This document shows, in pieces, positions 33,493-45,281 of a stretch of DNA of 64,000 bases. This stretch comes from Gemmatimonadota bacterium (lineage in GTDB: Bacteria > Gemmatimonadota > Gemmatimonadetes > Longimicrobiales > Gaopeijiaceae). Location of the stretch: contig SHZR01000005.1 of NCBI GenBank assembly GCA_009692205.1, positions 62,001 through 126,000 of the forward strand, given 5' to 3'. The notes under the pieces were generated by a model. It was given only the letters and a program-made list of their open reading frames with translations, was not told the origin of the DNA and ran no database searches. The position numbers were made by a program, and so were the translations under genes. Within the stretch, counting starts at the first letter, position 1; each line of letters begins with the position of its first letter.

Positions 33493-34719
33493 ATGACCTT
33501 CGATCCGGTGCGCATCCGCGCGGAGTTCCCGGCGCTGGCCCAGAACGTGAACGGCAAGCCGCTCGTGTATCTAGACAGCGCGGCTACGTCGCAGAAGCCG
33601 CGGCACGTCCTCCGGGCCATGGAAGCGTATTACGAGCACGACAACGCCAACGTGCACCGGGGCATCCACGAGCTCTCGCGCCGTGCCACGGAGGCGTTCG
33701 AGGAGGCGCGCGGCAAGGTCGCTCGCTGGATCGGCGCGGCCGACCCGGCGGAGTTGATTTGGACGAGCGGCACCACGGGGTCGATCAACCTCGTCGCCAG
33801 CGCATGGGGCTTGGACAACGTCCGCGCCGGGGACGAGATCCTGCTCTCGGTGCTCGAGCACCACTCGAACATCATCCCGTGGCAGCTGCTCGCACGACGC
33901 ACCGGAGCGCGGCTTCGCTACATCGAGATCGACGACCAGGGTCGTTTGATCCTCGACGATCTGCCCTCGCTCCTCTCGGACCGCACGAAGGTCGTCGCGA
34001 TCTCGCACGTCTCGAACGCGCTCGGCACGGTCAATCCGATCAAGGCCATCGCGGCGGCGGCCCACGAGGTGGGCGCGCTCATGGTCGTCGACGGGGCCCA
34101 AGGCGCGGTGCACGCGAAGGTGGACGTGCAGGAGCTCGGCGTGGACTTCTACGCGCTCTCCGGCCACAAGATGTGCGGGCCGACCGGGAGCGGTGCGCTG
34201 TGGGGACGCCGCGATCTCCTCGAGGCCATGTCACCGTATCAGGGCGGCGGCGAGATGATCCACTTCGTCGGCCGCGACGAGAGCACCTGGGCCGAGCTGC
34301 CCCACAAGTTCGAGGCCGGCACGCCCAACATCGCGGGCGCGATCGGGATGGGCGCGGCCGTCGACTTCCTGTCGGAGATCGGCATGGAGGCGATCCAGGT
34401 TCACGAGCGTCGCCTACTCGCGTACGCGATGGACCGCGTCGGAGCGATCGAGGGGATACGTATCTACGGGCCCGAGTCGCTCGACGAGCACTCCGCGGTC
34501 GTGTCGTTCACGCTCGGCGATGCCCACCCGCACGACATCTCGACCATTCTGGACTCCGAGGGCGTTGCGATCCGCGCCGGACATCATTGCGCGCAGCTCG
34601 TCATGAAGCGCTACGGCATTGCCGCCACCGCGCGTGCGTCTTTCTATCTGTACAACTCAGAAGAAGACATCGACCGCCTGGTAGAGGGGTTGGGGGTCGT
34701 GCGGGGCATCTTCGGCTGA
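33493..34719 (+). CDS. sufS: SufS cysteine desulfurase
   Basis: 408 residues, PLP-dependent class V enzyme. YLDSAATSQKP near the start, the Schiff-base lysine in ALSGHKMCGPTGSGALWG (Lys ~225), and the active-site loop IRAGHHCAQLVMKR with the catalytic cysteine (~366). It takes sulfur from cysteine and hands it on; in this genome the acceptor is probably SufU, encoded about 10 kb away at 44829. ATG start. Last gene of the main suf block. Confidence 0.95.
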   Translation: MTFDPVRIRAEFPALAQNVNGKPLVYLDSAATSQKPRHVLRAMEAYYEHDNANVHRGIHELSRRATEAFEEARGKVARWIGAADPAELIWTSGTTGSINLVASAWGLDNVRAGDEILLSVLEHHSNIIPWQLLARRTGARLRYIEIDDQGRLILDDLPSLLSDRTKVVAISHVSNALGTVNPIKAIAAAAHEVGALMVVDGAQGAVHAKVDVQELGVDFYALSGHKMCGPTGSGALWGRRDLLEAMSPYQGGGEMIHFVGRDESTWAELPHKFEAGTPNIAGAIGMGAAVDFLSEIGMEAIQVHERRLLAYAMDRVGAIEGIRIYGPESLDEHSAVVSFTLGDAHPHDISTILDSEGVAIRAGHHCAQLVMKRYGIAATARASFYLYNSEEDIDRLVEGLGVVRGIFG

Positions 34720-38551: not shown

Positions 38552-39163
38552 ATGAGCCACAGCACGAAGGCGCCCGTCGAATTCACTGCTGTCGCGCGCG
38601 ACACGGTCCGCCGGTTCATGCAGGCGAGCGAGGATGCGAACTTCGCTGTCCGAATCCGGGTTGGGAGCCCAAGTCCGCTTGATCCCCGTTACGAAATCAC
38701 GCTGATCGAGCGCGATGAGAAATCCGACGAAGATGTCGTGTTCGACGAGGATGGGTTCGAGGTCGTCATGGACCCCGAAAGCGCGAGGATCCTTGATGGC
38801 GCCCGTATCGATTGGATCGAGACCATGATGGAGAGCGGGTTCAAAGTGGAGAACCCGAACCTGGCGCCGATCGGCTCCAAGCCGTTGGAGGGCCCTCTCG
38901 CCGACCGGGTTAGGCAGGCGATCGATCAATACGTGAACCCTGGCGTCGCGCAGCATGGCGGTCACGTGACGTTGGTCGAGGTGAGGGACGACATCGTCTA
39001 CCTCCAGATGGGCGGGGGCTGCCAGGGATGCGGAATGGCGTCCGTAACCCTGAGCCAGGGGATCGAGAGAATCCTCAGGGAACAGGTGCCGGAGATCGCT
39101 GGCATCCAGGACGTAACCAACCACTCGGCTGGCGATAGCCCTTACTTCGCTGCCGCGAAGTAG
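38552..39163 (+). CDS. nfuA: NfuA-type Fe-S carrier protein
   Basis: 203 residues, near the 191 of Escherichia coli NfuA. Residues ~8-105 are a degenerate A-type (IscA-like) domain lacking cluster cysteines. The C-terminal NifU domain (~115-190) has the CxxC motif in [14 protein letters not shown]. NfuA delivers [4Fe-4S] clusters to target enzymes. It lies between two radical SAM genes (moaA and the B12-type enzyme) and upstream of an ATP-grasp gene, so the likely clients are these two. ATG at 38552; 25 bases before the ATP-grasp gene. Confidence 0.88.
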
Positions 39164-39188: not shown

Positions 39189-40430
39189 GTGCCAAGGGTC
39201 CTGCTCCTGTTCGCCCGAACGAGCTATCGAGCCGAAGCTTTCCTCGTAGCGGCCCGCCGCCTCGGCGTGGACGTGACCGTGGGTTCGAATCATCGGCAGG
39301 TGCTGGCCGATCTCGCTCCAGGTAGCACTCTGACTGTCGGAGTTAGTGACGTCGAGCGATCCACGGCCACTATCGTGCGGTTCGCCTCCGACTACCCGCT
39401 GGCGGCGATCGTGGCGGCAGAGGACGACTTCACGCCGCTGGCGGCAGCGGCGTCCGAGGCTCTCGGACTGAGGCACCATCCGAGTGACGCGGTCCGATGC
39501 GCGCGAAACAAGGCCCTGATGAGGAGCCGACTCTCCGCGGCGGGATTCTCATCACCTTGGTTCCACGTGGCCTCACTCCACGACGATCCGGTGCGTGTGG
39601 CGTCGAGGACCGGCTTTCCCTGTGTTCTGAAGCCGCTCTCGCTCTCGGCCAGCCGCGGTGTGATCCGGGCCGATGCGCCCGAGGAGTTCGTCCGCGCCTG
39701 GCACCGCATTCGGGGAATTCTCGAAGCAAGCGACGTCGTTGAGCGAAGTGGAAGCTTGGCGGCCGAAATCCTGATCGAAGCTTACCTGCCGGGGCGTGAG
39801 GTGGCCGTCGAAGGGATCGTGGTCGGTGGCGAGCTCCTTACGCTTGCCCTCATGGACAAGCCGGACTCCATGGAGGGGCCATTCTTCGAGGAGACCATCC
39901 TCCTGACTCCTTCGCGTTTTCCAGATAAGGTCCAAGACGACATAGTGTCCGTGGTGCGGCGCTGCGCTGCCCATCTGGGCCTCGATGACGGCCCCATCCA
40001 CGCGGAGTTGCGTGTTGACGCGGACCAAGTCTCACTGCTTGAGATCGCCCCGCGCTCGATCGGCGGTCGTTGCTCCGCGATCCTCAGGTTCGACCCAGAT
40101 GCCACACTGGAGGAGCTTATTGTTCGCCACGCGCTGGGCATGCCGCTTCAGGGCTTCAAACGAGAGCCGCGGGCCTCGGGGGTCATGATGCTGCCGATTC
40201 CCATGGCCGGTATCCTGCGCGAGGTCGCCGGCGTTGACGCGGCGCTGCAGGTGGCGGCCATCGAAGGGCTCGAGCTCACGATCCCGCTCGGCCAAACCGT
40301 GGTGCCGCTCCCCGAGGGCAATCGATACCTGGGGTTCCTGTTCGCCAGGGCGGACAGCCCGGATCAGGTGGAGACCGCTCTCAGGCTCGCGCACGCTCGA
40401 CTCGACGTGAAAGTCGAGCCACCCGGATGA
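39189..40430 (+). CDS. ATP-grasp ligase, amino-acid-ligase-like
   Basis: 413 residues. N-terminal preATP-grasp domain (PRVLLLFARTSYRAEAFLVA), ATP-binding region with FPCVLKPLSLSASRGVIRA, AYLPGREVAVEGIVVGGELL and the metal-ligand strand SLLEIAPRSIGGRCS (Glu and Arg/Asn-type ligands), and a C-terminal domain (~310-413) resembling the L-amino-acid ligase extension (SGVMMLPIPMAGIL). It would join a carboxylate to an amine through an acyl phosphate. No biotin-type or carbamoyl-phosphate context. Convergent with DUF2203; follows nfuA by 25 bases. ATP-grasp plus radical SAM suggests modification of a small molecule or peptide. Confidence 0.85.
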   Translation: MPRVLLLFARTSYRAEAFLVAARRLGVDVTVGSNHRQVLADLAPGSTLTVGVSDVERSTATIVRFASDYPLAAIVAAEDDFTPLAAAASEALGLRHHPSDAVRCARNKALMRSRLSAAGFSSPWFHVASLHDDPVRVASRTGFPCVLKPLSLSASRGVIRADAPEEFVRAWHRIRGILEASDVVERSGSLAAEILIEAYLPGREVAVEGIVVGGELLTLALMDKPDSMEGPFFEETILLTPSRFPDKVQDDIVSVVRRCAAHLGLDDGPIHAELRVDADQVSLLEIAPRSIGGRCSAILRFDPDATLEELIVRHALGMPLQGFKREPRASGVMMLPIPMAGILREVAGVDAALQVAAIEGLELTIPLGQTVVPLPEGNRYLGFLFARADSPDQVETALRLAHARLDVKVEPPG

Positions 40431-40441
40431 CGCGCAGGAAG

Positions 40442-40945
40442 TCACCGACTTTCGTCGAAGGTGCCGGGTGCCGGATCTTCGCGGCGGGGCGGGTCATCCG
40501 ACCGACCCAACCTCTGACCTTGCCTCGCAGTAATCCGGCGCCGACCGGCGTAGCCTCCGCTCAATTCGTGCCAATACGCCACCCTGGGCTCGTTTGACTG
40601 CCAACAGAGGTAGACCCAACGGCCGTCCAGAGTGGTCGGAAAGTCGACCAGTCCGTGCTCGAGGCCGCCGACCGGAAAGCGGATGTCCCGGCCGATGAGT
40701 CGCCCTTGGATGAGCTCCTCGATCGCCCGACCGTACTCCGCGAGTGAATGACGATGCTGCATGTATTCCTCGTGGTCCGGGTTGGCGCTTTGCGAGACGA
40801 GGTCGCCCCAAAGAGCGTCCAGCACGGCCAGCTGGTCCATCTTGCTGCGCGCCGCGTCGCGAAGACCGTGGATCTCGTCGAGGACGGCCCGTACGTCCGG
40901 CAGCATCGCGTTTGCCTCGTCGACCGTGAAGGCATGATGGCGCAA
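40442..40945 (-). CDS. DUF2203 family protein
   Basis: 167 residues from TTG 40945, with GGAGAG ahead. The family opening FTVDEANAMLPDVRAVLDEI, the helical middle LRDAARSKMDQLAVL, and the ending segment DFPTTLDGRWVYLCWQSNEP with AYWHELSGGYAGRR are typical. Function unknown. It begins 5 bases after the stop of the radical SAM selenoprotein, so the two are co-transcribed and the SECIS-like hairpin sits just upstream of its start. The C-terminus extends beyond the usual family end with charged residues. Confidence 0.82.
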   Translation of the reverse strand: MRHHAFTVDEANAMLPDVRAVLDEIHGLRDAARSKMDQLAVLDALWGDLVSQSANPDHEEYMQHRHSLAEYGRAIEELIQGRLIGRDIRFPVGGLEHGLVDFPTTLDGRWVYLCWQSNEPRVAYWHELSGGYAGRRRITARQGQRLGRSDDPPRREDPAPGTFDESR

Positions 40946-40949
40946 TCGT

Positions 40950-42392
40950 CTAGCTCTCCGATCCTCTCACCGTGGTCACAGAGCCGAACTGGCTCTCGGT
41001 CGGCTCAGCTCAACAGAACCACGCTTCGGTCAACTGAGGCGGCCTGACACGTCGACGGCGGTATCTGGGTCGGGCCACGGCTGGCTGGTCGGAAAGAGTC
41101 GCAAGCGTAAGCTCCTTGATCCGGTAGAACGTCGTTGCCGGATCTTCACTCGAGCTGGTCGCTTCTTCCGCGACTCGCGCGACCTGCCGTTGTAGCATGT
41201 CCACACGGGGATCCGGATGCTGCCACGAGTACACGAAGTCCTCCTGAACCAGGCTCCCCAGGTGAGGTTGGATCTCCGGAATGTCGAGCAGCCATGAGCC
41301 TCGAGGCAGGAGGAGCCTGATGGAGTAGTGCACCGGATCGACCTGATCGATCAGATCGTGGTCCTGCACGAACTCGAGCAGCTCCAAATACCCCGACAGC
41401 GTTGTCCAGGGCGTGAACGGCAGCAGCGAGGGGCGGAGCGCTACGTTGGTGGCTCGCGTAATCGACAGGGCAGCAACCACATCACTGCGGGTGTGACCCT
41501 TGTCGAGATAGCCAAGAATACGGTCGTCCACACTCTCCACAGCGGACAGAACGAAGATGCACCCGAGCGCTGCCAGCTCCCTGACCGCGTCACGATGCTC
41601 GATCAGGTGCTCGATCTTGGCCGTGAAATCGAAGCTCAGCTCGGGGTGGCGCTTACGCATCTCTCGAACAATCCCGAGCGAGTGCTTCACGGCGTTCAGG
41701 AAATCCGGGTCACCAAAATCGATGTGCTGCGCGCCCCGACGCACAAGGTCGTCGATGTCTGCAAGCACGACATCCTGCTGCACTATGCGAAGCCTCCCCT
41801 CATAGACAGCGGGGATCGGGCAGTGGCGGCACCGGTGAGCACAGCCGCGGCTGGCCTCGACATAGCCCACCAGCCGGAGCTCCCCCTCCGATGTCCTCAG
41901 GCGGGCATACTTCTCCAGGGGAGGCAGCAGGTGTCGCGCTGGTGGGAGAAACTGCTGCCGAGACAGGTTGGGCGGACCACGCTGCGCGGCGAGAGAGACA
42001 CCTCCCGGACGAGGCAGTTGATTCTCGGCTAACCGGTCGACGTGCTGAGTAAGCGGCGTCTCGAATTCACCGCCGATCACGCTGTCGGCAACGCCGTCGA
42101 GGAGGTAGTCCTCGTTAAGAGAGGCGTAGAGCCCGAAGTAGCAGATGTGGCAACGCGGATTCAATCTCCGGACCAGCTCACCGGCTTTGACGCCGAGTCG
42201 GAGCGCGGTGTGCATGGGAGTCGAGATCCCGACAAAGTCGGCTCGACGGACTTTGGCTTCGTCGAGAACCTCGACCGCGAGATCCAGGCACTCCACTCGA
42301 TGGCGGCCTTCAGCGAGTAAGTGTGCGCCAGCGGACGCTACTCCGAACGGCTGATGGCCGAGCTCGTAGCAGGAGATGAGGAGCACGTTCAT
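40950..42392 (-). CDS. B12-binding radical SAM protein with Cys-Sec-Ala-Glu-Pro tail (probable selenoprotein)
   Basis: 480 residues if UGA 41012-41010 is read as selenocysteine (residue 461). The N-terminal ~130 residues form a cobalamin-binding-like Rossmann domain (MNVLLISCYELGHQPFGVAS). The radical SAM core starts VEASRGCAHRCRHCPIPAVY (CxxxCxxC) and contains HIDFGDPDFLNA. The chain would stop at ...LTEAWFC with TGA, but the same frame continues Ala-Glu-Pro and 16 more residues to TAG at 40952-40950, giving CUAEP. A family of radical SAM proteins with CUAEP or CCAEP tails is recognised, to my knowledge without known function. A hairpin 14-30 nt after UGA fits a bacterial SECIS. The following gene starts 5 bases after TAG. 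Confidence 0.85.
40980..41012 (-). promoter_or_regulatory. Candidate SECIS element at the UGA of the radical SAM gene
   Basis: UGA at 41012-41010. From 14 to 30 nt after it lies AGAGCC-AGTTC-GGCTCT (40996-40980): a perfect 6-base stem, 5-nt loop, with G as second loop base, and the loop starts 20 nt after UGA. This agrees with the known bacterial SECIS pattern (short apical stem, G in the first two loop bases, 16-37 nt from UGA). An alternative longer stem uses GAGCCGA near the UGA. Confidence 0.55.
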
Positions 42393-44679: not shown

Positions 44680-44828
44680 GCGTGCGGTTGGGGGGGGTCG
44701 CCTAAGCTCGCGAGCGCGCGACGCGGCCGAAATGGGCGTGAGCCTTCCGGCCCGTGACCCGGGACGCGATTGGAAGTGCGGGGCTCAGCGCCCTAGATTT
44801 GGGGCCCGACCCTCCGACCGGCCCACCG

Positions 44829-45281
44829 ATGGAAACGCCGCAACTCAACTCGCTCTATCAGCAGCTCATCCTCGAGCACTATCGCAACCCGCGGAACAAG
44901 GCGGAGCTGGAGGAGAAGACCGTCGAGGTGCACCTGGCGAATCCCGTCTGCGGCGACGAGATCCGTCTGCAGCTCCGCATCGAAGACGACCACATCGCCG
45001 AGGCGAAGTTCGTCGGTCAGGGCTGCTCCATCTCGCAGGCCGCGGTCAGCATGATGACCTCGCTGCTCAAGGGACGGTCCCTCGCCGACGCGGACGGAGT
45101 CGCCAAGCGCTTCACGCAGATGATGCACGGCGATCAGGACGCCGCGAAGGACAAGGCACTCGGAGATCTGCGCGCGCTCCAGGGCGTGAGCAAGTTCCCC
45201 GTGCGCATCAAATGCGCGTTGCTGGGCTTCGACGCGCTTCAGGAGGCGCTCAAGAAGAACCTCGCCGGAGAGGAGCACTGA
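44829..45281 (+). CDS. sufU: SufU, sulfur-transfer protein of the SUF system
   Basis: 150 residues from ATG 44829. Zinc/sulfur ligands: NPVCGDEIRLQL (Cys and Asp), VGQGCSISQAAVSMM (Cys) and FPVRIKCALLGFDAL (Cys), the three-cysteine pattern of SufU. It receives persulfide sulfur from SufS and passes it to SufB. Usually next to sufS; here separated from it by about 10 kb of other genes. The C-terminus is shorter than that of NifU and lacks an Nfu domain. A methylguanine transferase gene follows within 6 bases. Confidence 0.93.
   Translation: METPQLNSLYQQLILEHYRNPRNKAELEEKTVEVHLANPVCGDEIRLQLRIEDDHIAEAKFVGQGCSISQAAVSMMTSLLKGRSLADADGVAKRFTQMMHGDQDAAKDKALGDLRALQGVSKFPVRIKCALLGFDALQEALKKNLAGEEH

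Follow-up and report, generated by a model that had tools for sequence, protein, structure and literature searches.

We analysed a stretch of 64,000 nucleotides (nt) from a Gemmatimonadota bacterium (assembly GCA_009692205.1, contig SHZR01000005.1, positions 62,001–126,000; here referred to as the window) and identified on its minus strand a gene for a radical S-adenosyl-L-methionine (SAM) protein with an in-frame UGA and a Cys-selenocysteine-Ala-Glu-Pro (CUAEP) tail. To judge from comparison with its relatives, the UGA at 41010–41012 almost certainly encodes selenocysteine (Sec). The computational analysis brought out this Sec encoding, the kinship of the protein with the arsenic enzyme ArsL and its long-standing pairing with an ATP-grasp ligase of the kind that forms peptide bonds. 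The kinship, the ligase pairing and the selenocysteine insertion sequence (SECIS) of the gene are new, in that they were not found in the literature searched, whereas the family itself is already known and named (NF040546), although uncharacterised in function. Taken as a whole, the statement that the protein is a selenoprotein which forms a carbon–element bond as ArsL does and hands its product to the ligase for conjugation has, in our estimate, an even chance of being right.

Recoding of the in-frame UGA

The minus-strand frame starts with ATG at 42392 and runs for 460 codons to UGA 41012–41010, ending in LTEAWFC. When the UGA was read as U, the final Cys was followed by U and by AEPTESQFGSVTTVRGSES, which is Ala-Glu-Pro and 16 more residues, before TAG 40952–40950; translation confirmed here the frame given by a preliminary description made from the letters of the window. 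The extended protein matched the NCBIfam model NF040546 (CUAEP/CCAEP-tail radical SAM (seleno)protein) with 626.4 bits, above the cut-off of 500, and the match spans residues 3–470, crossing the UGA and covering nearly the whole model. The C-terminal C-(C/U)-A-E-P by which NF040546 is defined is present in the window protein. Since the extended protein passes the model, it belongs to a family already named in NCBI, selenoprotein members included, and this is the family that the preliminary description had pointed to.

Scanning named genomes turned up 80 relatives; tails and SECIS elements were compared in 89 sampled ones (17 with UGA and 72 with Cys). A Cys codon (TGC or TGT) occupies the UGA position in 72 of the 89, a ratio that is biased and gives no frequency, because Cys codons for WFCCAEP were written into one of the scan patterns. 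TGA was found at this position in all sampled Gemmatimonadota, in Rokubacteria, in one Actinomycetota, in one Acidobacteria, at which the tail reads CUSEP, and in Thermomicrobium roseum. WFC-X-AEP(T) shows little or no variation across 61 aligned homologues; the homologues thus keep C-C/U-A-E-P, the feature on which the preliminary description had rested its test of the tail. Codon differences after the UGA were 137 synonymous to 189 non-synonymous in frame, whereas the two other frames gave 41:308 and 37:307; the A-E-P-T codons alone had 98 synonymous and 18 non-synonymous differences. Given this near-invariance and the coding-type evolution of the codons, the frame beyond the UGA is, on the sequence evidence, not a chance one.

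All four components that had been set beforehand as a check, namely tRNA-Sec (66.5 bits, cut-off 47), selB (323 bits, cut-off 242), selA (554 bits) and selD (390 bits), were found in the window genome (2.72 Mb, 97.9% complete). Its selD has an in-frame UGA of its own (G000 contig C27:29767–30690), and SelD is likely itself a selenoprotein. Every whole genome with the UGA form that was checked has a tRNA-Sec above 65 bits; among 19 genomes with the Cys form it was found in 9, and the other 10 had no convincing one. For T. roseum the search covered the plasmid record only, and no tRNA-Sec was found on it. Reassignment of the code was ruled out, since UGA is the ordinary stop in 7 of the 12 window genes checked, the CUAEP gene and its like not being counted.

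Downstream of the UGA we identified a hairpin of the bacterial SECIS type. The bacterial SECIS model has a stem of 4–16 bp and a loop of 3–9 nt with G in its first two positions, lying 16–37 nt from the UGA (PMC13188914), and the window hairpin (6 bp, loop AGUUC, 19 nt) fits this geometry. A stem in this register, 5 bp or longer and with the loop starting 19 nt after the UGA, was present in all 17 UGA members, in which the loop reads AGUUN, or CGUCG in T. roseum. In an alignment of ten distinct hairpin sequences, 95% of the cells were paired and 4 of the 6 pairs were changed on both sides; the covariation score was 0.556 vs 0.243 for shuffled alignments (0 of 500 shuffles) and at most 0.181 when slid. 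A hairpin in the same register was detected in 3 of the 72 Cys members, all of them Thermogemmatispora (L091, L084 and L075). In these it stands beside the Cys codon, with 8 bp in L091, and tRNA-Sec is retained; it is probably a relict of a recent change from Sec to Cys.

The Sec machinery, the relatives with a Cys codon, the synonymous change after the UGA and the shared SECIS together support the earlier proposal that U is encoded by UGA. Both conditions that would have refuted this proposal, a genome lacking selB and tRNA-Sec and homologues lacking the conserved tail, were examined and do not apply. It could be argued instead that translation simply ends at the UGA, so that the active protein has 460 residues with Cys as the last and the downstream match is a remnant. 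Gene callers do stop at this UGA, and the annotation of T. roseum WP_012643191.1 likewise ends at WFC, in line with the earlier statement that gene calling cuts the protein at residue 460. However, a plain stop would hardly account for purifying selection on the tail codons behind it, for a complete Sec machinery in the genome, for a Cys codon there in 72 of 89 relatives or for a SECIS limited to the UGA members and Thermogemmatispora, and we regard it as very improbable.

The T. roseum gene lies on a plasmid of strain DSM 5159 (NC_011961.1; L132 7935–9440), where WP_012643191.1 is annotated to the UGA and the frame continues with AEPLEDPSGPV. Gene callers therefore trim a conserved end even when the strain is in culture and its plasmid record is complete.

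Kinship with ArsL and the ligase partner

The second-best family for the window protein was NF040542, ArsL, the radical SAM enzyme that forms the carbon–arsenic bond of the antibiotic arsinothricin, with 329.7 bits over residues 3–411, and ArsL proteins scored 300–373 bits against the CUAEP model. CUAEP proteins are 34–39% identical to the ArsL of Priestia (36% over ~410 residues for the window protein), and on these scores ArsL is the closest characterised relative of the CUAEP family. ArsL is required for the formation of hydroxyarsinothricin from As(III), and was proposed to place on arsenic a 3-amino-3-carboxypropyl group taken from SAM (PMC8552651); a later review gives this radical transfer by ArsL as established, citing Yao et al. 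2024 (PMC12159101).

The gene convergent with the radical SAM gene encodes an ATP-grasp protein, the only PF13535 protein of the window genome, and its closest solved structure is the L-amino acid ligase 3vot (E 1e-31). ATP-grasp homologues were found in 49 of the 80 loci, from ten groups; of the 46 loci that had room, 33 held one no more than 3 kb away. The sampled ATP-grasps linked to CUAEP genes form one clade (support 97/97). An ATP-grasp gene was also present in 6 of the 7 ArsL clusters read.

Genes for an ATP-grasp and a GTP-binding protein were observed in ArsL clusters on plasmids of Priestia, Alicyclobacillus, Pantoea and Klebsiella (L133, L134, L136, L139, L140 and L141), in addition to the arsQML genes known from Burkholderia. 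These clusters may make a ligated derivative of arsinothricin.

Proposed reaction and its alternatives

Computation shows Sec encoding, membership of the family, the kinship with ArsL and the pairing with the ligase: recoding of the UGA, directed by the hairpin 19 nt downstream, gives a C-terminal Cys460-Sec461 pair. The chemistry, including the accepting element and the sequence of steps, we infer as follows. A [4Fe-4S] cluster at C184, C188 and C191 would cleave SAM reductively, as in ArsL, and a SAM-derived group, probably 3-amino-3-carboxypropyl, would pass to a soft (thiophilic) acceptor, which the vicinal pair of the tail (Cys-Sec or Cys-Cys) would hold at the SAM site. The partner ATP-grasp ligase would then couple the resulting alpha-amino acid to a second amino acid or to an amine, and the NfuA/SUF neighbours may supply Fe-S clusters or sulfur. 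Group transfer of the ArsL kind, argued by analogy, is a serious possibility, to which we give somewhat less than an even chance. More tentatively, CUAEP/CCAEP proteins may be a widespread sister branch of ArsL, made up of Sec/Cys-dependent formers of carbon–element bonds with a dedicated ligase that conjugates a metalloid, selenium or sulfur amino acid derived from SAM. If this is true, Nitrospirota, Chloroflexota, Gemmatimonadota, Actinomycetota and others would contain a small-molecule pathway that has stayed hidden. The family now has a proposed function that can be tested, a reaction of the ArsL kind in which a ligase is the partner, and cultivable hosts are available in T. roseum (UGA) and Thermogemmatispora (Cys codon, SECIS retained).

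Several results weigh against this proposal. Folded alone, the SECIS segment of the window was no better than its shuffles (z −0.93) and its minimum free energy structure was a different stem, so that the support for the SECIS is comparative. The window protein falls short of the ArsL model (329.7 bits, cut-off 450). Within 8 kb, across the 80 loci, we found no homologues of ArsR, ArsM, ArsN1, ArsQ, aquaporin or CobW, apart from one weak ArsM-like match; ArsB-family transporters lay ~4 kb off in five Ktedonobacteria. In the window, too, no arsR, arsM, arsQ or arsN1 was found. As ars genes were not found as recurrent neighbours, an arsenic operon context for CUAEP genes was rejected; their absence nearby leaves arsenic as the acceptor unsupported by context and argues against a dedicated arsenic pathway. 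Moreover, the ATP-grasps of ArsL and CUAEP clusters are not one clade (approximately unbiased test, p = 0.002, with long branches in play). A single clade shared by both was rejected, and the pairing of radical SAM protein and ligase is probably separate in origin. It seems, then, that two sister families of radical SAM proteins each acquired a ligase of the same kind on their own, which fits an amino-acid product that needs conjugation.

Finally, the NfuA, SUF and DUF169 neighbours could instead indicate Fe-S or sulfur metabolism. The protein would then be a maturase for Fe-S clusters or for sulfur/selenium trafficking, working with NfuA/SUF, and the ATP-grasp a protein-modifying ligase. An NfuA-like homologue is present in 22 of the 80 loci, from 8 groups, the gene is found inside SUF operons of Ignavibacteria and Bacteroidota, and SufS- and SufU-like genes are close to it in the window. 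On the other hand, 22 of 80 is a minority, radical SAM enzymes require a supply of Fe-S clusters in any case, and the partner fits small-molecule L-amino acid ligases (3vot, LAL_C2) much better than RimK-type protein ligases. We consider such a role unlikely.

The tail itself could also be explained without substrate holding. In mammalian thioredoxin reductase a C-terminal Cys-Sec pair works as a redox relay, and with this precedent the Cys-Sec tail may reduce a disulfide, pass electrons to the cluster or protect it. In favour of a relay, an MsrB-like gene adjoins the CUAEP gene at two loci and a SaoD/DsrE-family gene at two others. Against it stands ArsL, the closest characterised homologue: its C-terminus likewise carries a vicinal Cys pair, and the element on which it acts binds thiols. 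WFCxAEP exceeds the preceding linker by far in conservation, but this does not alone discriminate a relay from a substrate holder. We think a relay possible but doubtful. The preliminary description had stated that gene calling removes the probable redox-active end: a conserved tail is indeed removed, but its redox activity is not established, and in view of the ArsL parallel a substrate-binding tail is at least as fitting.

The AlphaFold model of the protein had a mean predicted local distance difference test (pLDDT) score of 93.6, with 82–85 at residues 451–470 vs 67 at 441–450, so the tail is predicted to be ordered after a looser linker. The predicted fold consists of a Rossmann-like B12-type domain and a radical SAM barrel. 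Its best structural match was AprD4 (Z 28.1), and MgmA, OxsB and TsrM followed with Z 24.7–26.4; folds with and without cobalamin are both matched. A further reading makes the protein a methylase or cyclase of the TsrM or OxsB type, a radical SAM enzyme that depends on cobalamin, with the tail as an accessory. Besides the matches to OxsB, TsrM and MgmA, a match to the Pfam B12-binding domain (PF02310) would favour this, but at 28.2 bits it lies under the cut-off of 32.1. AprD4, the best fold match, is a diol dehydratase that is not known to use cobalamin, and the sequence is much nearer to ArsL. A cobalamin-dependent enzyme is thus quite unlikely, and ArsL-like chemistry remains the reading that we prefer.

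Neighbouring genes, distribution and known systems

Positions of the gene, its elements and its neighbours in the window
Feature	Position	Strand	Basis
CUAEP-tail radical SAM selenoprotein coding sequence, 480 residues, predicted Sec at 461	40950..42392	-	NF040546 626 bits; Radical_SAM Pfam match residues 179-314
Radical SAM cluster motif C184-x3-C188-x2-C191	41820..41843	-	invariant in 61 members, present in ArsL
In-frame UGA, predicted Sec461, directly after Cys460	41010..41012	-	TGA/Cys-codon comparison across relatives
Coding tail past Sec, AEPTESQFGSVTTVRGSES	40953..41009	-	AEP near-invariant, 61 homologues
Bacterial SECIS hairpin, stem AGAGCC/GGCUCU, loop AGUUC beginning 19 nt past UGA	40980..40996	-	comparative
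ATP-grasp_4/L-amino-acid-ligase-like partner, convergent with the radical SAM gene	39189..40430	+	PF13535 105 bits, LAL_C2 50 bits
DUF2203 protein, directly downstream	40442..40945	-	PF09969 91 bits
NfuA-like Fe-S carrier (IscA-like and NifU domains), recurrent neighbour	38552..39163	+	TIGR03341 132 bits, below its cut-off
SufS-like cysteine desulfurase, wider SUF neighbourhood	33493..34719	+	assigned by reading the sequence, without a hidden Markov model
SufU/NifU-like scaffold protein	44754..45281	+	assigned by reading the sequence, without a hidden Markov model

The next gene does lie close behind the TAG, as had been noted, with a spacing of 4 bases if the DUF2203 open reading frame starts at TTG 40945; ATG 40935 is the alternative start. 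DUF2203 was rejected as a functional partner, as it is not conserved in other loci, and the homologue search of the 80 loci gave nothing for building a profile. A DUF169 protein (34 loci) and SUF genes also recur as neighbours, and in L082 (10001–12211) no stop separates the CUAEP protein from the DUF169 protein that follows it, owing either to fusion or to an error in the stop codon. In L047, L051 and L053 (Bacteroidota, Ignavibacteria) the CCAEP gene was observed within an operon for SUF Fe-S assembly. Directly downstream of the CCAEP gene in the Actinomycetota L079 (3865–4230) and L086 is a gene for a SaoD/DsrE-family protein (NF040913); the Sao group is linked to selenoproteins and metals.

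In a tree of the radical SAM proteins built without the tail, the UGA members fell in five separate places. That the hairpin keeps one position, and that Thermogemmatispora has it intact next to a Cys codon, suggests an ancient Sec that gave way to Cys several times, a direction of change that we infer. Seven further genomes with the UGA form were found in the order of the window genome, at which the gene is patchy (7 of 154 genomes above the cut-off). The four other genomes of the window genus (G109–G112) all lack the full CUAEP gene, although each keeps tRNA-Sec. No viral carriers of the gene were found. A search on CUAEP or RCCLKC gave no match in the collection of literature searched, and the main text of a 2026 review of 119 selenoprotein families mentions neither CUAEP nor NF04054x (PMC13188914).

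Compared with known systems, the window protein is a regular NF040546 member of the Sec form, with no structural difference from the family. With AprD4, OxsB, TsrM and MgmA it shares the same two-domain fold (Z 24.7–28.1), but these are 15–19% identical and have no CUAEP tail. The partner resembles L-amino acid ligases (BL00235, PDB 3vot; BacD) in sequence family and in its LAL_C2 domain, yet belongs to a distinct clade tied to CUAEP genes. Both ArsL and CUAEP proteins have the C-x3-C-x2-C radical SAM motif and a C-terminal vicinal pair, KRCCLKC in ArsL and WFC(C/U)AEP in CUAEP proteins. They differ in that the window tail reads WFCUAEP rather than the RCCLKC that defines the C-terminus of ArsL, the linker before the vicinal pair is ~40 residues longer in CUAEP proteins, no ars operon surrounds the window gene, and its ATP-grasp is from another clade.
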